Assembly (NCBI GenBank): GCA_017640505.1
Contig: JAEPQO010000005.1
Span: 124,001-188,000 of the forward strand
Length of the DNA: 64,000 nucleotides
Origin: Rhodospirillales bacterium
Lineage (GTDB): Bacteria > Pseudomonadota > Alphaproteobacteria > Rhodospirillales > Casp-alpha2
Reading direction: 5' to 3'
Positions 30,891 to 44,129 of this stretch are shown one piece after another. Under the pieces are notes generated by a model. It was not told the DNA's origin, ran no database searches, and worked only from the letters and a program-made list of their open reading frames with translations. A program made the position numbers and the translations under genes. Numbering within the stretch: position 1 is the first letter of the stretch; the number at the start of each line of letters is the position of its first letter.

Positions 30891-31075
30891 ATCGTTAGTG
30901 TTGTTCCATAAAGGCACAAATAAAACACAAGGTGGCGATGTTGTAATAAAGTTTCTACGAATAGACATATCACAGCCTGTGAATGTAAGTAGCCTTGACC
31001 GCAAAAATCGTTTATAGTGCGTCGCAACATCGGATTCGCGCCGCGGCCAGGAAGCCCGGCAGGGAAAGTACGCAC

Positions 31076-31426
31076 ATGGTAGATCAAGCAATGCTCGCCG
31101 GCGCCACTGAGGCGGCGGATTTTCTCAAAGCCCTCGGCAATGAAAACCGGCTGCTGATTCTTTGTCATCTGAGCGAAGGCGAGATGTCCGTTTCGGAGCT
31201 GGAGACTGCCCTTGGCCTGCGCCAGCCGACGTTGTCGCAACAGTTGGCCAGGCTCCGTTCGGACGAGCTGGTCGATACGCGCCGCGACGGCAAGACGATC
31301 TATTACTCGCTCGCGTCCGAAGAAGTGCGCAAGCTTCTGGAGCTTATGTACAACCTGTTCTGCTCCACCGAAGCCAAGGCCGCGCGCGAAAAAATGGCTG
31401 CGGCACGAAACAGCGCCGCAGCCTGA
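31076..31426 (+). CDS. ArsR-family persulfide-sensing repressor, SqrR/BigR type
   Basis: This 116-residue winged-helix protein reads through LLILCHLSEGEMSVSELE, RQPTLSQQLARLR (recognition helix), VDTRRDGKTIYYSL and MYNLFCSTEA. Cys30 and Cys96 are 66 residues apart, the same spacing as the Cys41/Cys107 pair that forms a tetrasulfide bridge in SqrR. The start ATG 31076 has AGGGA about ten bases upstream. It is convergent with soxD and is the likely repressor of the sox genes. Confidence 0.88.
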   Translation: MVDQAMLAGATEAADFLKALGNENRLLILCHLSEGEMSVSELETALGLRQPTLSQQLARLRSDELVDTRRDGKTIYYSLASEEVRKLLELMYNLFCSTEAKAAREKMAAARNSAAA

Positions 31427-31454: not shown

Positions 31455-32507
31455 TTATTCGGCCGACGCCTCTTTCATGTAGGCGATCAGATCACGCACG
31501 TCTTCTTCCTTGCGAAGGCCGCCGAACGCCATCCGCGTATTGGCTTTCTCCTTGCCGATGACACCGCCGAGATACCCCTTCGGGTCGGTCAGAAAGCCGG
31601 CCAGCGTCGCCGCATCCCAGACCAGTCCGGCATCGCCGACCTTCTGGAAATCCTTCGAGTAACGGAAACCGTCGACGCCCCCGGCAGCACGGCCGAAGAC
31701 GCCGTGCAGGCTGGGCCCGACACGGTTTTTCGGACTGTCGATGACGTGGCAGCCTTTGCACTTGTTGAACACGGAGCGCCCCGCCACCGGATCACCGGTC
31801 TCCGCGGCGGCAACCTGTTCCGTCTTTTCTTCGGCGGGCGCGGCCTCGGCCCCTTCGGTGGTGTCTCCGCCGGTTTCAGGCGTCACGTCCAGCACGCGGG
31901 CGCGCCCGATCACCTCAATCTTGTCCTTGCAGTCCTTCATGCATGCCGTACCGCCCTCGGGTTGCGCATCGGGACGCGGGTCCATGAAGAAGTTCGCTTG
32001 GTTCGGCATTTCAATCGTACCGATATTGTCCTGCGTGACGGCAAAGTCTTCCTCGATGACGTCATTCATGAACAGAAGATAGGCCGTCAGAGCATAGGTC
32101 TCGTCATCCGTCAGGCTTTGTGCGTCACCAAACGGCATCGCGCGCTTGATGTAGTCGAACACCGTAGACGCATAGGGCCAGTAGCTGCCGATGGTTTTTT
32201 CCGGTCGCATGTCCTTAAGCGTCCCGTGACCGCCGATCAGAACCGGATAACGGCCCCCACCCTCGCCGAATTCGCCGTGGCACGATGCACATTTCACGAG
32301 GTAGACACGCTCGCCCTCGCCGGCCGTGCCATGTCCCACCGGTGCACCCTGCCCGTCGGGACGGACGTCGATGTCCCAGCTCTTGATTTCCTCGGCCGTC
32401 GGCGTGCGGCCGACGCCTTCGTACTTGCGCTCGGCCGCGTCAAGCGGACCCGACGCAACGAAAGTCAGCGCCAGCGCGGCGGCGATACCCTTAAGCCAAA
32501 CGGACAT
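31455..32507 (-). CDS. soxD: Sulfur dehydrogenase cytochrome c subunit SoxD
   Basis: This 350-residue periplasmic cytochrome has a signal peptide (residues 1-24) and two heme c sites, C73-ASCH and C250-KGCH, each in its own domain. An acidic Ala/Glu linker spans roughly 205-240. It transfers electrons from SoxC during oxidation of the SoxY-bound sulfane sulfur. ATG 32507 follows GAGGTGG and overlaps the soxC stop by 17 bp. Confidence 0.93.
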
Positions 32508-33780
32508 TTTCCACCTCGCCGGTCTTGGTGATGTGCCATGTCTGGATGGCATTGTTGTGATAGATCGAATTGACGCCGCGGACCTTCTGCAGCGCGGTCA
32601 TTTGCGGTTGCACGTAGCCGGTGTCGTCAATGGCACGGCTTTGCATGTAGAGCGGGTTGCCGTCCCACTCCCAACCGTCGAGATAGAACCGCGTCAGGCA
32701 CTTCGGCATAACTGGTCCATCGAGCCGGGCTTCGGTCCAGTTCTTGCCGCCATCCAGCGACACGTCGACACGCTTGACCGTGCCACGGCCCGACCATGCG
32801 AGCCCGGTGATGACGTTCGGGCCTTTCTGCGTCAACGGATTTTCCGGACACGGGCTGGTGATCACGGACTTGCAGTCCATTTCCCAGGTGAAGCGTCGCG
32901 CGCGGCCGTCCGGCATCAGGTCGGTGTACTTCGACGTTTCCTCGCGGGCCTGCCAGGATTCGTCGCCGACCTCGATCCGCCGCAGCCATTTCACCCACAT
33001 GTTGCCTTCGAAGCCCGGCACGACGAGGCGCAGCGGATAACCCTGTTCGGCGCGCAGTTTCTCGCCGTTCATTGCAAAGGCGACCATGCAGTCGTCGAGA
33101 GCCTTTTCGATCGGAACGGAACGGTTCATCCCCGCGCTGTCACCGCCTTCGACCATCAGCCACTTGGCCTTGGTGCTGACGCCCGCTTCCTCGAGCAGAA
33201 GCTTCAGCGGCACGCCGGTGTACTGCACGCAGTGGATCATGCCATGCGTGAACTGGACGCCATTGAGCTGCGCATTGCGCCATTCCATGCCACCATTGGC
33301 CGCACATTCCAGGAAGAAGAACTTCGAGACACGCGGCAGCCGCAGCAGGTCTTCCATCGTGAACAGCAGCGGCCGGTCCACCATGCCGTGGATCATCAGG
33401 CGGTGTTCGACCGGATCGACATCCGCGGCGCCACCATGATGGCGCTCGAAGCAGATGCCGTTCGGCGTGACGAATCCGTCAAGCGCATAGAGCGGCGTGA
33501 AGTTGATCGAGGATTCCCGTGTCGCCGTCAGCCATTCGACGCTGCGCCGGACCACGCCAGATTCATGACGCGACGGCTTGCCGTAGGGTGCATCGTCGAC
33601 GCTCGCACCGAGCTGGCGGCTCCAGTCCGGGATCTCGAGCCCCGCCGCACCGGCGGTCTTCGGTGCCGAGAAGGTTCCGGCCGCGGCCAGTGCCGACCCG
33701 GCCAGCCCGGCCTGCAGGAACTGGCGGCGTTGCAGGCCAGGCCCGCCGTCACCCGTCGTGTTTGATTTCTTTTTAGCCAT
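32491..33780 (-). CDS. soxC: Sulfur dehydrogenase molybdopterin subunit SoxC
   Basis: This 429-residue sulfite-oxidase-family protein starts at ATG 33780 with GGGAGG eight bases upstream. The N-terminus carries a Tat motif (QRRQFLQAG). [11 protein letters not shown] contains the molybdenum-ligating Cys, and the C-terminal dimerisation domain includes [18 protein letters not shown]. With SoxD it oxidises protein-bound sulfane, so thiosulfate can go fully to sulfate without stored sulfur globules. Confidence 0.94.
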
Positions 33781-33817: not shown

Positions 33818-33858
33818 AACATATTCGTTAATTTCATTATATAAAATGTGAATATGTT
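33818..33858. promoter_or_regulatory. Inverted repeat AACATATTC-N23-GAATATGTT at the soxCD promoter
   Basis: The arms at 33818-33826 and 33850-33858 are perfect 9-bp inverted repeats. The core CATATTC-N23-GAATATG recurs with identical spacing at 40166-40202. It is probably a double operator for the ArsR-type regulator. Confidence 0.65.
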
Positions 33859-33911
33859 GTCCAGAGGGGCGAGGCGAAAAACCTGAATTTATCGCCTGGC
33901 GTTATCTGGCG

Positions 33912-34511
33912 TTATCCGGCTTTCTGGGCGCGGACGTACTCGTGAAACTTCTGCTTTTCGTAGGCTTTTTCCTGTACGTACTTGAACATCGCCAGGAAAT
34001 GCTGGGGTTTGAAGTAGCCGGGAATCCGGGCCACCTCGTTGTCGCGCCCGGTCTTGCCGTCCGCACCTTCGACATCATCGGTGAAGAACTGGATCGTCGG
34101 GGTGAAGCGCACCTGCCACTTGCGGGCCAGGTCACGTTCCGACAACTCCTCACCGTCGAAATCGGTCACGATCCTGGAACCGATGACATTAAGTTGCAGG
34201 ACCGTGAAGTTGGTCTTGATGAAGTCGAGGATGTCCGGCTGTGCGAGGTTGACCCGATGCGTTTCCTTGCAGTACGGGCATCCTTTCAGTTCCCAGAACA
34301 CGGCGAAACGTTTGCCGTTGCCGGCGGCATCCGCCAGGTCCTCGTTCATGATCAGAAACGATTCCAGGAACCACGGCTGGATGATCAGCCCGTCGTCGTT
34401 GTACTTCAGTTCCTCGGCCCATGCGGCGCCGGACCACGGCAGGAGACTGCCGGCAGCCGCTGCGAGACCCAGTTGTTGAAACCGTCGGCGGGATATCTGA
34501 TTGTCTTGCAC
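33912..34511 (-). CDS. soxW: Thioredoxin-like periplasmic protein SoxW
   Basis: This 199-residue protein has a Tat-type signal (ISRRRFQQLGLAAAAG) and a thioredoxin fold with the redox pair in LKGCPYCKETH and cis-Pro in RFTPTIQFF. SoxW passes electrons, supplied through SoxV, to keep the Sox carrier protein reduced. It is upstream of soxC on the same strand across a 131-bp promoter region. Confidence 0.88.
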   Translation of the reverse strand: MQDNQISRRRFQQLGLAAAAGSLLPWSGAAWAEELKYNDDGLIIQPWFLESFLIMNEDLADAAGNGKRFAVFWELKGCPYCKETHRVNLAQPDILDFIKTNFTVLQLNVIGSRIVTDFDGEELSERDLARKWQVRFTPTIQFFTDDVEGADGKTGRDNEVARIPGYFKPQHFLAMFKYVQEKAYEKQKFHEYVRAQKAG

Positions 34512-34527
34512 GGCGACCTCTATACGT

Positions 34528-34543
34528 ATTCCAATTACCGAAT
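34528..34543. promoter_or_regulatory. ATTC-N8-GAAT site between soxW and divergent gene
   Basis: This exactly matches the ATTC-N8-GAAT spacing I recall for SqrR operators. It lies between soxW (minus) and the secreted protein gene at 34613 (plus), placed to control both. Confidence 0.6.
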
Positions 34544-34612
34544 GTGTAGTTTAATCTTAGACCTGTTTCGCGCCAAGCCGCCAATTACGAAAAGCACAGG
34601 AAAACATTCGAC

Positions 34613-35338
34613 ATGTCTCGTCTTCTCCCGGCCTTAACAATGACTCTTATGCTCGGCTCCTTCCAGGTGCACGCCGCGGACTCACAGTCATTTGATGCCG
34701 CCCTCGGGGAAGCGTACGCGGGTTACCGCGCCGCCACCAGTTACCTCAGAACCGGGAACCCAGGCCTCGCGTCTCTCGAGACGGCGAGTGCACTCGATGC
34801 CATGAAAACGGCCGTCGCCCAATACGGCGATACCCCGCCCGCACCCTATGCGAAAGACCCGGCGTTCAAGTCGACGCTGAGCGATATCGAAGGCAGACTG
34901 GAGAAGGCGCTTGCTCAGGCCGAGGAAGGCGACACCAAAGCGGCTGCGGATACCCTCGCCCCGGTGCGCGGTATGCTGTACGCGCTTCGCAAACGAAACG
35001 GCGTGCGTCTTTATGCGGATTGCATCACGGAACTGAACCGGGCGATGGAGCCGCTCTTCAAACACCGCCGCACGCCACCCGACCTCGGCAACGTAGAAGT
35101 GCGCAACCAGGTCACGACGGAAAGCCGCACGTACGAGGATCTGGTAAAGGACTGCCGTGCGATGGCGCCGAGCAGATACGAGGACGACCCCGAATTCCGG
35201 CGTCTGTTCGACGGCACGCTAGAGTCCGTGCAGTCCATGTACCCGGCGATCGATAGCGGCGAGCCGGGACGGGTCATCAATGTGCTCAGGGAACTGCGCT
35301 CGTTCGACCGGATTATCTATTTCCGTTTCGGCGGCTGA
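34613..35338 (+). CDS. Secreted helical protein of the sox locus, function unknown
   Basis: This 241-residue protein has a signal peptide (LLPALTMTLMLGSFQVHA) and is mostly predicted helix, rich in Ala, Glu and Arg. It contains a single CI pair of interest (ADCITEL) and another Cys in VKDCRAMAP, but no CxxCH. The two periplasmic Cys could form a disulfide. Helical layout faintly recalls four-helix cytochromes lacking heme. It is divergent from soxW, and its stop is 3 bp from the convergent soxV stop. Confidence 0.65.
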   Translation: MSRLLPALTMTLMLGSFQVHAADSQSFDAALGEAYAGYRAATSYLRTGNPGLASLETASALDAMKTAVAQYGDTPPAPYAKDPAFKSTLSDIEGRLEKALAQAEEGDTKAAADTLAPVRGMLYALRKRNGVRLYADCITELNRAMEPLFKHRRTPPDLGNVEVRNQVTTESRTYEDLVKDCRAMAPSRYEDDPEFRRLFDGTLESVQSMYPAIDSGEPGRVINVLRELRSFDRIIYFRFGG

Positions 35339-35341
35339 CGC

Positions 35342-36085
35342 TCAGCCCACCTTGCCGAGGACGGGGAACGTCTCCAGCAGCCAGTAGGCGATGTCGGCGA
35401 TGGAGCCGGTAAGGAACAACACGCCGGTCGCAATCAGGAACACCCCGATCACTTTCTCGATCGTGCCCATGTGCCTGCGAATACCCGGCATGACCTGCAG
35501 GAACGGATTGATGCCGAGGGCCGCGATCAGGAACGGAATGCCGATACCGGCAGCATAACTGCCCAGCAGCAGCGTGCCCGAGGTGATCGATTCCTCGCTA
35601 CCCGCCATCATCAGGATCGCCGCCAACACCGGCCCCACGCAGGGCGTCCAGCCGAACGCGAAGGCAAGACCCATCAGAAACGCGCCAAACAGGCCGACCG
35701 GTTTCGCCGGTCCCTGGAAACGCGCTTCGCGGTAGAGCAACGGAATTTTGACGATACCCAGAAAGTGCACGCCCATGATGATGATCAGGACGCCGGCGAC
35801 GCGGCTGACCCAGAGCATGTTTTCCGCCAGCAACTGTCCGAGGAACGACGCGGTCGCCCCGAACAGGATAAACACCAGCGAAAACCCGACAACGAACGTC
35901 AGCGCCGCAAAGAACACACGCCAGTTGGCGCCGGGCGGCGGCCCGGCTTCGTCCGTCATCTCCGCAATGCTGACCCCGCCGATGAAGCAAAGATAGGGCG
36001 GCACCAACGGCAGAATGCATGGCGAAAAGAAACTCAGAAGACCGGCGATGAACGCTCCGGCGAAACCGACGTCAAAACCTGCCAT
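35342..36085 (-). CDS. soxV: CcdA-family thiol electron transporter, SoxV type
   Basis: This 247-residue membrane protein has six hydrophobic segments. Two redox Cys lie in FFSPCILPLVPPY and GWTPCVGPVLAA, the CcdA hallmark. It carries reducing equivalents across the membrane, here most likely to SoxW or SoxS. It is the last gene of soxXYZAB-V, 38 bp after soxB. A general cytochrome c biogenesis role is also possible. Confidence 0.9.
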   Translation of the reverse strand: MAGFDVGFAGAFIAGLLSFFSPCILPLVPPYLCFIGGVSIAEMTDEAGPPPGANWRVFFAALTFVVGFSLVFILFGATASFLGQLLAENMLWVSRVAGVLIIIMGVHFLGIVKIPLLYREARFQGPAKPVGLFGAFLMGLAFAFGWTPCVGPVLAAILMMAGSEESITSGTLLLGSYAAGIGIPFLIAALGINPFLQVMPGIRRHMGTIEKVIGVFLIATGVLFLTGSIADIAYWLLETFPVLGKVG

Positions 36086-36123
36086 GATTTTTCCTAGCCG
36101 CGTGGGTTACGCACGACCGGCGA

Positions 36124-37812
36124 TTACACGCCGCGCACGTTGACCGTCTGATTCTCCGGGATGGTAATCGACTTTTGCTTCTCGATATACCCGGCGACGA
36201 GATCGTAAGCCGGCGGCCCTTCCGTGCCCTCGTTGACCGAGGCCCAGCCGGCGACCACGTAGTCGCGGTTCGGATCGATCGGCTTACCGTCCTTCAGCGT
36301 CGTCAAATCGGAAATGCGCGAGCCGATGTCCTTGTCGACGTCGATCGTATAGCTCATGCCGCCGACGCGCACCATGTCCCCGCCCTGCTGGTAGTACGGA
36401 TCCTTGTTGAACAGGTTGTCGGCCACGTCTTCGAGGATTTCCTTGATGAACGAGCCCTTCATCTCGGTCCGGTAGACGTTCGGATACGTGATCGACGTGT
36501 GATGGTGCACGTGTTCGACGGTGATCTCCTGGCCCGGCAGCAGGCTGGAGCCCCAGCGGAAGCCCGGCGACAGCGCGATCTCGGCATCACGTTCTTCCAG
36601 CAGCGCCTGACAGATCAGGTCGTCGAACGTGCCGTTGAAATTGCCCCGGCGGTAGAGCGTCGATTCCGTGACGCCCAGCACTTTCTCGACCTCGTCCTTG
36701 AACGGCGCGCGGAGATTTTCGATCAGCGCGGCCATCTCGGGGTCCGGCGTAATCACGTCGGAGAATACTGGCATCAGCTTGAAGCGGTACTGCGCGACCT
36801 TGTTGTCCTTCACGTCGAGGTCGAGGCGCGACAGGTATTTGCCGTGGCTGCCCGACGCGACGAGGATCGTGTTGTTGACGATCTCGACCTTCGGCAACGC
36901 GTCGTGCGTGTGCCCGGTCAGAATGACGTCGATGCCGTCGACGCGGCTGGCCAGCTTGCGGTCGACGTCGAAGCCATTGTGCGACAGCAGAACGACGAGT
37001 TCGGCGCCTTGGGCGCGGGCATCCTCGACATGCTTGCGGACGGCCTTCTCGTTGATGCCGAACGACCAGTCCGGGATCATGTAACGCGGGTTGGCCACCG
37101 GCGTATAGGGGAACGCCTGGCCGACGACGGCGATCTTCACACCGCCGCGTTCGAACCACGCGGTGGATTCGAACACCGGTTCCTGCCACTCGGTATCGGT
37201 CACGTTGCCGGCAAGGAACGGGAATTCGAGCATTTCCTGCAGTTCCTGAACCCGGTCCTGGCCGTAGGTGAACTCCCAGTGCGCCGTCATGGCGTCAAGG
37301 CCAAGCGCGTTCTGGATCTTCACCATGTCCTCGCCCTGGGTTTCCAGTGACGAATAGGATCCCTGCCACGTATCGCCGCCGTCCAGGAAAAGCGTATTGT
37401 TCGGACGTTCAGCACGGACTGCCTTGACCAGTGTCATCATCCGGTCGACGCCGCCGACACGGCCGTATTCCTTGGCGAGTGCGGTAAAGTCGTGGCTTTG
37501 CAACGCATAAGCCTCGGGCGTGCCCGGCTTAATGCCGTAGTGCCCCAGGAAATCCTTGCCGGTGATATGCGGCGGCAGCCCTTCGACCTCGCCAACGCCG
37601 ATGTTCACCGAAGGCTCCCGGAAAAAGATTGGCGTCAGCTGCGCGTGCATGTCGGTGAAATGCAGCAACGTGACCTGACCGAGCGACTGGAAGTCCAGAA
37701 TGCCGGCCTGATCAAGCTTCTGCTGGGCCATGGCCCGGCTGAACGGCATGGCGGTTCCGGCGACGGCTGCCGTGGCGGCGGCGAGATGGAAGAATTCGCG
37801 ACGAGATATCAC
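36124..37812 (-). CDS. soxB: Thiosulfohydrolase SoxB
   Basis: This 562-residue dimanganese enzyme hydrolyses the sulfonate from SoxY-bound thiosulfonate to release sulfate. It begins with a Tat signal (ISRREFFHLAAA). Metal-site motifs of the 5'-nucleotidase fold are visible: LLHFTDMHAQL, LDGGDTWQGS, LLSHNGFDVD and DVILTGHTHDAL. The length is usual for SoxB. Confidence 0.96.
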   Translation of the reverse strand: MISRREFFHLAAATAAVAGTAMPFSRAMAQQKLDQAGILDFQSLGQVTLLHFTDMHAQLTPIFFREPSVNIGVGEVEGLPPHITGKDFLGHYGIKPGTPEAYALQSHDFTALAKEYGRVGGVDRMMTLVKAVRAERPNNTLFLDGGDTWQGSYSSLETQGEDMVKIQNALGLDAMTAHWEFTYGQDRVQELQEMLEFPFLAGNVTDTEWQEPVFESTAWFERGGVKIAVVGQAFPYTPVANPRYMIPDWSFGINEKAVRKHVEDARAQGAELVVLLSHNGFDVDRKLASRVDGIDVILTGHTHDALPKVEIVNNTILVASGSHGKYLSRLDLDVKDNKVAQYRFKLMPVFSDVITPDPEMAALIENLRAPFKDEVEKVLGVTESTLYRRGNFNGTFDDLICQALLEERDAEIALSPGFRWGSSLLPGQEITVEHVHHHTSITYPNVYRTEMKGSFIKEILEDVADNLFNKDPYYQQGGDMVRVGGMSYTIDVDKDIGSRISDLTTLKDGKPIDPNRDYVVAGWASVNEGTEGPPAYDLVAGYIEKQKSITIPENQTVNVRGV

Positions 37813-37853
37813 GGCGCAGACCCTCTGTTTTGAAAATGGCGAAAAGAAAGTAT

Positions 37854-37883
37854 GACCGGAGAGACGCTCGCGCCTCTCCGGTC
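37854..37883. other. Perfect 10-bp hairpin between soxA and soxB
   Basis: GACCGGAGAG and CTCTCCGGTC pair around a 10-nt loop. On the minus strand a pyrimidine-rich tract TACTTTCTTTTCG follows. It may partly terminate transcription or protect the upstream soxXYZA message. Confidence 0.6.
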
Positions 37884-37898
37884 AGGTTGAGGCTTAAA

Positions 37899-38708
37899 TC
37901 AGTTACGCACAGCAGGCGTTTCGACCGGCAATCCGCGGCCACGCCATTTGACGTAGAGTTCCAGCGCGAGATATTCATCCGAACCGTAGCCAAACGGTGC
38001 CGAACGAACCTGCTTGTTGCAGCCCCGGAAACGGCGGTGGATCGAACCCACCTTCTGCCATTTCAGGCGATACGTCGGGAACCCGTTGACCTGGCCCTGC
38101 GTGAGGGTATTCGCGCGGATAATACCGCCCGCATTGTCCTCGTGGCAGTGTTTGCAGGCCATGTCGAGCTGGCCGCGGCGCTCGTAATAGAACGCCTTGC
38201 CCTTCTCGTACCATTCCGCCGCCGGGCCATCGATCTTCACGTCGACCGGCATACCGAGCGACTGGTTGTTGATGAACGACGTCATCGACAGCATTTCGGT
38301 CGATTCCCACTTATAGGGCTCGGCCTGCATGTTGTTTTCGAGGCAGTGATTGATCTGCGTCTCGACACTTTGCAGCGTCTTCGCACCTTCGTCATAGACC
38401 GGATAGCGTGCGGCAACGCCCTTCATTGCAGCCGTCGCGTCTTCGTGACAGCTGGCACACGACTTACCGGCCTTACCGTTGACTTCGGTCCACAACTCGG
38501 CACCCTGCTCGACCCAGATCATGCCCGGGTTCTGGAAGCTGTCGACCTGCATGGCCCGGCTTTCGTCGGTCATGTAGGTGAAGCCACTACGGCGGTCATC
38601 GACCTCATACTGCCCCCAATCGGCGGCATTCGCCGACGAGACGAACACACTTGCGCACACGGCACACGCCGCAGCGACAAATGTGACCTGTTTCCAGTTC
38701 ATTTTCAT
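37899..38708 (-). CDS. soxA: Diheme cytochrome c SoxA
   Basis: This 269-residue protein has a signal peptide (to about residue 29), heme sites C84-ASCH and C185-KHCH, and the catalytic Cys230 in RRFRGCNKQVRSAPFG that binds thiosulfate. It forms SoxAX, which links thiosulfate to SoxY. ATG 38708 follows GGGAGG; a second ATG two codons on is also possible. Confidence 0.95.
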   Translation of the reverse strand: MKMNWKQVTFVAAACAVCASVFVSSANAADWGQYEVDDRRSGFTYMTDESRAMQVDSFQNPGMIWVEQGAELWTEVNGKAGKSCASCHEDATAAMKGVAARYPVYDEGAKTLQSVETQINHCLENNMQAEPYKWESTEMLSMTSFINNQSLGMPVDVKIDGPAAEWYEKGKAFYYERRGQLDMACKHCHEDNAGGIIRANTLTQGQVNGFPTYRLKWQKVGSIHRRFRGCNKQVRSAPFGYGSDEYLALELYVKWRGRGLPVETPAVRN

Positions 38709-38740
38709 GGTTGTTTGCCTCCCGTTTTTCCGGTTGCCGC

Positions 38741-39070
38741 TCAGGCGACGGTTATCTTCGCGGTTTTTTCGTATACCGATCCGTCGTCGTCGGTCCATTT
38801 GAAGGCAAACTCGCCGCTTTCTTCGACCTTGGCGAAGAACGACATATAGGGGTTTGCGGAAATGGCGGGATGCCAATCGGCCGTAAACACCGGCTTGCCG
38901 TTAAACGTGACTTCCATCTTGTTGATGATGCTACGCGGAATCAGCTTGCCGTCTTTGCCTTTGCGGCGGCCGGATTCCATTTTGTGTGAAATCAGAGATT
39001 TGATTTCGATGATATCGCCTTTCGCAGCCTTTTTCGGGACACGAACGCGGGGTTTCACACCTTTAGCCAT
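38741..39070 (-). CDS. soxZ: Sulfur carrier complex subunit SoxZ
   Basis: This 109-residue immunoglobulin-like protein has PRVRVPKKAAKGDIIEIKSLISHKMESGRRK and FNGKPVFTADWHPAISANPYMSF, both typical of SoxZ. It binds SoxY and has no signal peptide, so it is exported with SoxY. It lies 21 bp from soxY. Confidence 0.95.
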   Translation of the reverse strand: MAKGVKPRVRVPKKAAKGDIIEIKSLISHKMESGRRKGKDGKLIPRSIINKMEVTFNGKPVFTADWHPAISANPYMSFFAKVEESGEFAFKWTDDDGSVYEKTAKITVA

Positions 39071-39091
39071 GATATTCTCCTTTTCCTCGCG

Positions 39092-39574
39092 TCAGCCGCC
39101 GCAGCCGCCGATGGTGACTTTGACTTCCTGTTGGGCCCGATAAACGCTGCCGTCGCTCATTTCCGCGACTGCAACGATGTTCTGCGTGCCCGCAAGACGA
39201 ATACGCGTCGCCGCCGAGGCTTTGCCGCTCATCGGCGTGAAGTGCAGCGATGCCACGTCCGGCGCCGGGTTGCCGTCGGCAAACAGGTGAACCGATTTGA
39301 CGTAGTTGTCGGCCGTCATCGGGCTGTCGACGCTGACACCGACCGGCACCGTGTTGCCGTTTTCGGCGATCTGCGGCAGCTCGAGGGTGATTTTCCCGTC
39401 GGCCGGTTTCTTGTCGCCGATCAACTTCATGATCGCGTCATTGGTCATTTTCTCGTCTGCGTTCGCGGTGCCGCTCTTGAGAACGACTCCGCCGGCCGCG
39501 ACCATCGTCGCCCCGGCCGCCAGCATGAGCGCCTCGCGGCGCGTCAAAGCTGAAAGTGCTTGTTTCGTGGACAT
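39092..39574 (-). CDS. soxY: Sulfur carrier protein SoxY
   Basis: This 160-residue protein has a Tat signal (LTRREALMLAAG). It ends in GGCGG, whose Cys158 carries the sulfur intermediates on a flexible arm. The GDKKPADGKITLELPQIAENG segment is typical. Confidence 0.96.
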   Translation of the reverse strand: MSTKQALSALTRREALMLAAGATMVAAGGVVLKSGTANADEKMTNDAIMKLIGDKKPADGKITLELPQIAENGNTVPVGVSVDSPMTADNYVKSVHLFADGNPAPDVASLHFTPMSGKASAATRIRLAGTQNIVAVAEMSDGSVYRAQQEVKVTIGGCGG

Positions 39575-39597
39575 GTCTGTTCCTCTTGCTCTTGTCG

Positions 39598-40053
39598 TTA
39601 CTTGAAGGTCTTCAGATAAGCGACAATGTCCTCGACCTGCTGTGCGGTCAGGACCGTCTTATCCTTGAACTTCTTAAGGACCCGGTGGAATCCGTCGGTG
39701 CGGTAGAATGCCGGCATGATGGTATCCGGATTGATCGCCTTGGCATTGACGACCTGCAGCCGGAGTTGCGGTTCTTCGTAACGCTCCGCGACACCATCCA
39801 GAGATGGGCCGATTTCTCCGTGGAACGGGTGTGCGGAGAGCTTCGTGACCTGATGACAAGCCAGGCAATTGCCCTGCTTGCGATTGACGAAGGCTTTCTC
39901 GCCGGCAGCCGGATCACCGGCCTTACCCGTCAGAGATTTCGCAATTCCGTAGTCGACGACCTCATACTTCACAAGGTGGTCATCAGCGGTGGCCACGCTT
40001 GCCAGCAAGGTAGCTGCAGCAAAGGCCGGGATAAATGATTTTAAACTTGGCAT
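39598..40053 (-). CDS. soxX: Monoheme cytochrome c SoxX
   Basis: This 151-residue protein has a signal peptide ending near ATA-DD, a heme site NCLACH and the axial Met in DTIMPAFYR. It partners SoxA. It leads the soxXYZABV run and lies downstream of the operators at 40122-40202. Confidence 0.95.
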   Translation of the reverse strand: MPSLKSFIPAFAAATLLASVATADDHLVKYEVVDYGIAKSLTGKAGDPAAGEKAFVNRKQGNCLACHQVTKLSAHPFHGEIGPSLDGVAERYEEPQLRLQVVNAKAINPDTIMPAFYRTDGFHRVLKKFKDKTVLTAQQVEDIVAYLKTFK

Positions 40054-40121
40054 AGGGCAATCGCCTCCCGATGTATGTGCCTCATTCCGGAGCGATCATT
40101 CCCCTTAAACCCGGAACCATC

Positions 40122-40202
40122 ATTCACTGCCCGTGAATAACGATCGTCGCTCCCCCTATAAACATCATATTCAAAAAAAACTATATATCAACATTGAATA
40201 TG
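40122..40202. promoter_or_regulatory. soxX promoter region with two ATTC/GAAT inverted repeats
   Basis: ATTCAC-N5-GTGAAT occupies 40122-40138. CATATTC-N23-GAATATG occupies 40166-40202, matching the soxCD site in both arms and spacing. The region lies 69 bp upstream of soxX and just after soxS. Confidence 0.65.
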
Positions 40203-42973: not shown

Positions 42974-44056
42974 TTATTCGGCCGGTTGCACTTTGGCCTG
43001 ACGTGGCGCGAACTCCCGGCGCACCAGCACGTCACCGATGACGGCGCCGATCCCGATGGAAACCACGGCCAGGATGGAACCAACGGAAAGCGTGCTGAGA
43101 CCCGACAGCCCCTGCCCCACGGTGCAACCCAGCGCCATCACGCCGCCGAAACCCATAAGCGCGCCGCCGAGCGTATAGCGCAGCAGCTGATGCGGTGTTT
43201 CGAAGCCCTGCAGCACCCACTCGCCGCGTGTGACGGCGATGGCAAAGGCACCGATGATGACGCCGCCGACGGCCACGATCCCGAAGTCCGCCGTCGCGCC
43301 GGTATAGGTCATCAGATACTGGATCGCGTTCCCGACGGGCGCGGTAAAGGTAAGCGATTCCGTCCGCACTGGCTCGAACTCGTCAAAGCCGAGCACACCC
43401 GTCACGTACCAGCCGGCCGCGATCAGCGCGCCGACGCCCAGGCCCGTCAGAACGGGCCGGACGCGCTTTTCGAGTCCGCCGCGAAGCGCCACGGCAACGG
43501 CAATCGCAATGAAGGCCGCAGCGAACGCAAGCGGCACAATCTCCGACCCGCCGCTGAGCGCACCCAATGACTGCGAAGCATACCCCAGGGCTTCAAGGTC
43601 GAGCGTGCCGATTCCTTCAAGCGTCGTACGCGGGATCGCCAAAATGCCGCGCAGTGTCATGTAGGCAACGATACCCAGCACCGACAGCACGACGGCGGAA
43701 CGCAGATTTCCGCTGGCTAGCAACACCATATGCCGTGCACCGCAGCCCCGGGCCAGGATCATGCCGATCCCGAACAGTACGCCGCCGACGATCAACGTCA
43801 GCCACATCAGGCTGGTGGAAAGGTAGATACTTTCCGAGATATCAACGATCCCGAACCAAGACATGGCCTGCGTCGCCGCAACCGCCGTGGCGATGGCGAC
43901 AGCCCACGCCCGCACCTGGAATCCGACCCGGCGCGCCAGCAATTCCAGCACCGCCGAGCGGAAGCAAAATGCACTCAGGCGCGCAATCACGCCAAAACCG
44001 ACGCCGACGACCAGGGCGCCAATCAGGAGGGCTGTACGGGGTTCGATATCACTCAT
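42974..44056 (-). CDS. YeeE/YedE-family sulfur (thiosulfate-type) transporter
   Basis: This 360-residue polytopic membrane protein has the family motifs LARGCGARHMV and ALGCTVGQGLSGLS, whose Cys residues line the thiosulfate path in TsuA. A third Cys is in SAFCFRSA. In a sox locus it is likely to move thiosulfate or another sulfur compound (SoxT-like). Upstream DNA to 44238 holds the palindromes at 44091-44150. Confidence 0.88.
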   Translation of the reverse strand: MSDIEPRTALLIGALVVGVGFGVIARLSAFCFRSAVLELLARRVGFQVRAWAVAIATAVAATQAMSWFGIVDISESIYLSTSLMWLTLIVGGVLFGIGMILARGCGARHMVLLASGNLRSAVVLSVLGIVAYMTLRGILAIPRTTLEGIGTLDLEALGYASQSLGALSGGSEIVPLAFAAAFIAIAVAVALRGGLEKRVRPVLTGLGVGALIAAGWYVTGVLGFDEFEPVRTESLTFTAPVGNAIQYLMTYTGATADFGIVAVGGVIIGAFAIAVTRGEWVLQGFETPHQLLRYTLGGALMGFGGVMALGCTVGQGLSGLSTLSVGSILAVVSIGIGAVIGDVLVRREFAPRQAKVQPAE

Positions 44057-44129
44057 GAGTTCACTTTCTTCGTTGAGCGCAGGTTTTACAGAATATATTC
44101 ATGAAATGCAATATAAAACTCTTTGAATG

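Follow-up and report, generated by a model that had tools for sequence, protein, structure and literature searches.

A sox-associated inverted repeat with a 23-bp spacer, a likely operator of the linked SoxR/SqrR-like repressor in a Rhodospirillales bacterium

The stretch of DNA analysed here (the window; 64,000 nucleotides of a Rhodospirillales bacterium, positions 124,001 to 188,000 of contig JAEPQO010000005.1 in assembly GCA_017640505.1) carries a sox gene cluster in which two promoters share a long inverted repeat, CATATTC-N23-GAATATG. One copy lies in the soxCD promoter (33820–33856, reverse strand) and the other in the soxXYZAB promoter (40166–40202, reverse strand). Judged from sequence, these N23 repeats are likely to be operators of the SoxR/SqrR-like ArsR-family repressor encoded nearby (31076–31426, forward strand), which would be released by sulfur and would probably bind each repeat as two dimers. 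The half-site and the regulator family are known, and the unusual part is the wide N23 spacing.

Both copies have 7-bp arms and a 23-bp spacer, match the pattern exactly and are the only ones in the window. None of 100 dinucleotide-preserving shuffles contained the repeat at spacings of 20–26 (mean 0.00 matches); a mirror-pattern control with three mismatches (115 vs 14) was set aside as its letter order is too unlike that of the motif. An earlier note on this DNA had described two repeats with identical arms, 23-bp spacing and differing spacers. Its coordinates proved exact and the spacers do differ, with the refinement that the centre of each is AT-rich and TATA-like. In the 3.95 Mb genome that holds the window (G000), the 7-bp arms at spacings of 15 to 30 occur at three places, and the 6-bp core ATATTC-N23-GAATAT is also exact at three. 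The scan with 7-bp arms proposed in that note thus recovered the two sox sites together with an N22 match before a LysR-type gene. The third exact N23 core (G000:C4:639920) is outside the window, ~69 bp upstream of a gene for a YeeE-type sulfur transporter that strongly matches Sulf_transp (PF04143).

Eight genomes of the genus were searched, six with soxX (G000, G043, G044, G045, G046 and G047) and two without a soxX match (G041 and G042). The six soxX-positive genomes have 13 exact N23 sites, every one of them at a sulfur gene, namely five at soxX, four at soxC and four upstream of a YeeE-type gene. The three exact sites in G041 and G042 all fall within open frames longer than 400 codons. 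Exact ATATTC and GAATAT pairs at spacings of 3–32 number 59 in the six genomes, with 12 at N23, 10 at N8 and at most five at any other spacing. With one mismatch allowed, G045 gains two sites, one at its soxX and one (L251:3081–3115) 180 bp ahead of a rhodanese gene. At the soxCD promoter, the core and its spacing are kept in four genomes of the genus, G000 included. Among loci of the wider family, N23 with at least 11 of 12 core positions matching (11/12) is found at soxX in 13/21, and at soxC in 8/9 of those with a readable soxC promoter. N23 at soxC also occurs in L020 and L038, two metagenome-assembled genomes labelled Kiloniellaceae and Rhodovibrionaceae. The suggestion of a common regulator site within one pathway is therefore supported: the repeat is uncommon and conserved, and where genus genomes carry soxX its exact form is found at sulfur genes only.

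The two repeats overlap promoter-like sequences in different registers. At soxC (TGGACA, 16-nt spacer, TATAAT; 33836–33863, reverse strand; 11/12 matches, conserved in four genus loci), the −10 element is in the middle of the repeat and one arm falls between −35 and −10. At soxX (TTGATA, 16-nt spacer, TATGAT; 40164–40191, reverse strand; 10/12 matches), the −10 element overlaps one arm and the other arm is just upstream of −35; the layout TTGAT(A/G)...GAATATGAT is kept in 26/30 family loci, L272 being used for L122. An FNR box was rejected here, as only the TTGAT half is present and fits the −35 element. That both registers come with N23 suggests that the length of 23 is a property of the regulator and does not merely follow from the geometry of the promoter.

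The N23 repeat is built from the half-site already published for SqrR. Passages of PMC9774250 give ATTC-N8-GAAT as the deduced SqrR site, and report it also in the YgaV footprint at ygaV, but not at katG. When SqrR-type operators were sought, N8 was found upstream of the soxW-like thioredoxin gene and a near match upstream of the soxT/yeeE-like gene, soxX and soxC carried the same half-site at N23, and four exact 6-bp N8 sites elsewhere in the genome lay away from recognised sulfur genes. The soxW site (ATTC-N8-GAAT; 34528–34543, reverse strand) is kept in 5/5 aligned genus loci. Since 1.03 such 4-bp sites are expected by chance in the window, which means no excess, its weight comes from this conservation and not from the window count. 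The soxT site (ATATTG-N8-GAATAT, 11/12; 44095–44114, reverse strand) is kept in 3/4 aligned genus loci, and a further half-site, ACATTC, pairs with the same arm at N24. Across 80 named soxC loci, searched whole with coding sequence included and at most one mismatch, ATATTC and GAATAT were paired at N8 in 36 cases and at each of 40 other spacings in 0 to 10; N8 is the commonest form in named sox loci and is far from general. A search of 32 distinct N8 sites from these named loci showed no third half-site beside the N8 operators.

The candidate binder has its closest solved relatives in the ArsR-family entries 13ct and 6o8k–6o8o (E 8e-26), which we take to be SqrR, followed by HlyU and BigR (3pqj, E 1.1e-21, presumably the Xylella fastidiosa protein). 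C30 and C96 align with the cysteines of SqrR and BigR, so that both marks of the SqrR/BigR/SoxR group, nearest relationship to SqrR/BigR and two conserved cysteines, are present. A bona fide SoxR is defined by linkage to sox genes in passages of PMC10451225, and here the repressor gene adjoins soxCD and is 8.2 kb from soxX. Of 36 soxX-positive family genomes, 33 have a repressor match with E 1e-26 or better, and 19 of the 36 have a match within 10 kb of soxX. In a repressor tree of 97 rows, a branch with support 99/92 separates the proteins of N8 loci (13) from those of N23 (10) and N25 (5) loci. The underlying alignment is short; rows below 90 bits or 76 aligned residues (L020 among them) were left out, as were the copies L015 and L016. 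L017 and L018, copies of L274 and L272, were kept, and L272 was labelled N25 despite an unclear upstream arm. A stretch that we take to be the recognition helix (window 31220–31270) reads LSQQ in 11/11 N23 rows and VSQQ in 15/15 N8 rows with a match. The SqrR-like character with both cysteines, the place beside sox, the SqrR half-site and the link between N23 and one clade together support, by inference, the earlier choice of the ArsR-type protein as the obvious candidate.

Upstream of the repressor gene itself, a weak N8-like site (ATATCA-N8-GAATGT, 9/12; 30967–30986, forward strand) is aligned in four genus genomes and makes autoregulation possible. No N23 or good N8 site (at least 10/12) was found upstream of this gene in the window; in two relatives, L266 and L282, the corresponding place holds an N8 pair at 11/12. 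A separate block, AGTGTTGTTC, at 30897–30906, also upstream of the repressor gene and beside a CmcJ-like oxidoreductase gene, is identical in four genus genomes.

In the mechanism that we propose, the reduced repressor would occupy the arms when oxidisable sulfur is lacking and block RNA polymerase at the promoters of soxXYZAB, soxCD and the YeeE-type transporter. By homology, sulfane sulfur would link the two cysteines, upon which the repressor would release the DNA. Half-sites are 12 bp apart at N8 and 27 bp apart at N23, the latter being too far for one such dimer; one ordinary dimer should thus be unable to span both N23 arms. We infer that the N23 repeat probably holds two dimers, each of which would hold on to one outer arm and extend into the AT-rich middle. 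Their dyads would be ~15 bp apart on nearly opposite faces of the DNA, each dimer having a strong outer and a weak inner half-site. The same repressor probably also uses N8 operators, and those at soxW and soxT would take one dimer. As a tentative extension, to which we give rather less than even chances, one SoxR clade of this Rhodospirillales-like family would read two geometries, with single-dimer N8 sites at accessory genes and two-dimer N23 sites at the main sulfur-oxidation and transport promoters, where control would be tighter and steeper.

A number of observations weigh against this interpretation. Four exact ATATTC-N8-GAATAT sites in this genome adjoin no recognised sulfur gene; the half-site at N8 is therefore not sulfur-specific here, these sites may serve another protein, and the odds of two geometries being read by one clade are lowered. 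N8 at 11/12 is present upstream of soxX in 9/50 and upstream of soxC in 4/77 named loci, a tally meant to be outside the family in which L015, L016, L017 and L018 (G046, G043, G031 and G030), at least four family genomes among the 80 named loci, were nevertheless counted. With one mismatch allowed, N23 has two further matches in G000 (C6:340237 and C5:56915), and the first is not at a sulfur gene. It sits between proline dehydrogenase-like and Lrp-like genes (names by eye) and was rejected as a regulon member. Specificity for sulfur genes is thus limited to the exact N23 core: the expectation that matches lie only at such genes stood for the exact core in soxX-bearing genus genomes and failed at C6:340237.

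The range of the repeat among relatives is also uneven. Six more loci with a soxC match, from five genomes of one other genus and L282 (whose soxC match is only 58% identical), all have no N23 there, which brings the soxC tally to 8/15. In the five genomes of that other genus, soxX has N25 in four and one clear arm in the fifth, and N23 at soxC is found in 0/5. The fixed distance that had been claimed for the arms consequently holds within the genus and gives way to N25 at soxX in 4/5 of these genomes. With respect to the protein, the cut-off of the BigR equivalog NF040642 was missed (105.1 bits vs 155), for which reason we name it SoxR/SqrR-like and not BigR. Of 12 family genomes without a soxX match, six also have a repressor match with E 1e-26 or better, and G000 encodes a paralogue (G000:C4:2028515, with 55% identity across 77 residues) as well as two ArsR matches that are more distant. 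The SoxR clade follows organism phylogeny, so that its co-occurrence with N23 is not independent proof, and the split between LSQQ and VSQQ may be just ancestry. Lastly, the earlier note had offered two dimers or bending of the DNA, and the inner half-sites that two dimers would use are degenerate and give weak signals. Over 29 sites, the best signals had p-values of ~0.001 for the right one at N10, 0.013 for the left at N5 and 0.033 for the right at N8, from hand-picked distinct sites in 18 uncorrected tests confounded by promoter elements; the set was aligned at N23, with the N25 loci, L104, L106, L112, L115, L117, L121 and L123 left out.

Four other explanations were considered. The same repressor might act as a tetramer, a dimer of dimers gripping both arms at once and bending or wrapping the intervening DNA. 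We regard this as rather unlikely: Hyphomicrobium SoxR is partly tetrameric in gel filtration according to passages of PMC10451225, and the middle of the repeat is AT-rich in all three promoter classes, but the arms, 27 bp or ~2.6 turns apart at 10.5 bp per turn, are not on one face, and N25 at soxX in relatives changes the phase. It is unlikely that the repeats belong to another binder, be it the ArsR paralogue (G000:C4:2028515) or some other factor not linked to the cluster. That paralogue is present in the genome, exact N8 sites lie away from recognised sulfur genes, and two such repressors bind the same fragments in Hyphomicrobium (passages of PMC12423496); the linked protein, however, stays near sox genes in the 19 of 36 genomes mentioned above, and N23 goes with its clade. 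That a promoter element fixes the position of each arm separately, with the distance between the arms a by-product, seems to us quite improbable. The soxX arms do hold a constant position beside −35 and −10, and the core spacer of the N25 cases, by reading, is 18 nt long and not 16, yet the −10 element is mid-repeat at soxC and overlaps an arm at soxX with N23 in both, and N23 is also found at the YeeE gene. Chance similarity of two AT-rich promoters with AT-rich arms can be dismissed in view of 0/100 matching shuffles and conservation at the same promoters in relatives.

The genes of the cluster served by the N23 promoters are all on the reverse strand. The operon behind the soxX promoter comprises soxX (39598–40053; TIGR04485, 95.3 bits vs a cut-off of 61), soxY (39092–39574), soxZ (38741–39070), soxA (37899–38711; TIGR04484, 257.9 bits vs 110) and soxB (36124–37812), the names soxY, soxZ and soxB resting on position and sequence. 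The sulfite dehydrogenase gene soxC (32491–33780; TIGR04555, 640 bits vs 420) is listed with a start at 33837, inside the repeat, in the program-made list of open reading frames, and the frame from 33780 covers the full soxC model. It is followed by a soxD-like c-type cytochrome gene (31455–32510), named by position, whose matches to cytochrome c models are below their cut-offs. The soxW-like thioredoxin gene (33912–34511; PF13098; putatively soxW) and the soxT/YeeE-like sulfur transporter gene (42974–44056; PF04143, 188 bits) are likewise on the reverse strand.

Some further observations were made in passing. Just before the third N23 site and its YeeE gene, a small protein is encoded that looks cyclic-nucleotide-binding-like by eye (L255:2668–3000), and similar frames adjoin the N23 site in G043 and G046. 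The N22 place (G000:C4:252391–252426; L001:1501–1536) is a CATATTC-N22-GAATATG repeat with an inner ATATTC. It was rejected as a regulon member, being 13 bp before the LysR-type gene with no sulfur gene seen there; this gene and a peptide-binding protein-like gene, both named by eye, are divergently oriented, and the repeat is perhaps the LysR-type regulator's own site. In two genus genomes, exact N8 palindromes (L258:3041–3060 and L269:2985–3004) precede homologous genes by ~61 and ~41 bp, and these are not obviously sulfur genes. We take these genes to be YfiH-like, and the palindromes perhaps mark a second regulon, of the ArsR paralogue.

Taken together, a resemblance between promoters becomes a small, testable regulon of soxXYZAB, soxCD, a YeeE-type transporter outside the window and perhaps soxW and soxT, and an operator spacing is linked to one repressor clade. 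Should N8 and N23 sites be read by one and the same protein, it would offer a clean system for studying how the strength and the steepness of a sulfur switch depend on operator spacing, and if the two geometries are indeed divided between accessory and main promoters, N23 would add a new class to the operators of persulfide-sensing ArsR repressors.

Among known systems, BigR of Xylella fastidiosa is a relative with a solved structure (3pqj), but its family cut-off is missed by the protein described here and it serves H2S detoxification (passages of PMC10451225). SoxR of Hyphomicrobium denitrificans is alike in being a sox repressor with two conserved cysteines; passages of the same source describe a polysulfide-responsive protein, dimeric with some tetramer, that gave two shifted bands on soxA-soxY, with probes picked for conspicuous inverted and direct repeats (PMC10451225). 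Its operator seems little defined there, the main text, figures and supplements aside, containing no ATTC or GAAT string, and passages of PMC12423496, PMC11582611 and PMC9995734 contain no operator sequence. In Hyphomicrobium, SoxT1B signals to SoxR (abstract of PMC11582611), which makes an N23 site before a YeeE-type gene apt. The titles and abstract openings found describe no N23 operator form; a precedent is possible in the subscription literature, for example in the study of Pseudaminobacter SoxR. The SoxR of Pseudaminobacter salicylatoxidans KCT001 is said, going by a title, to be a dimeric repressor that binds sox promoters cooperatively. The closest parallel in the DNA is that of SqrR of Rhodobacter capsulatus and YgaV of Escherichia coli, where the half-site, the palindromic layout, the promoter overlap and a sulfide-responsive regulator of the ArsR family are alike (passages of PMC9774250). 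The spacing is 8 in those systems, whereas it is 23 here at soxX, soxC and the YeeE gene.

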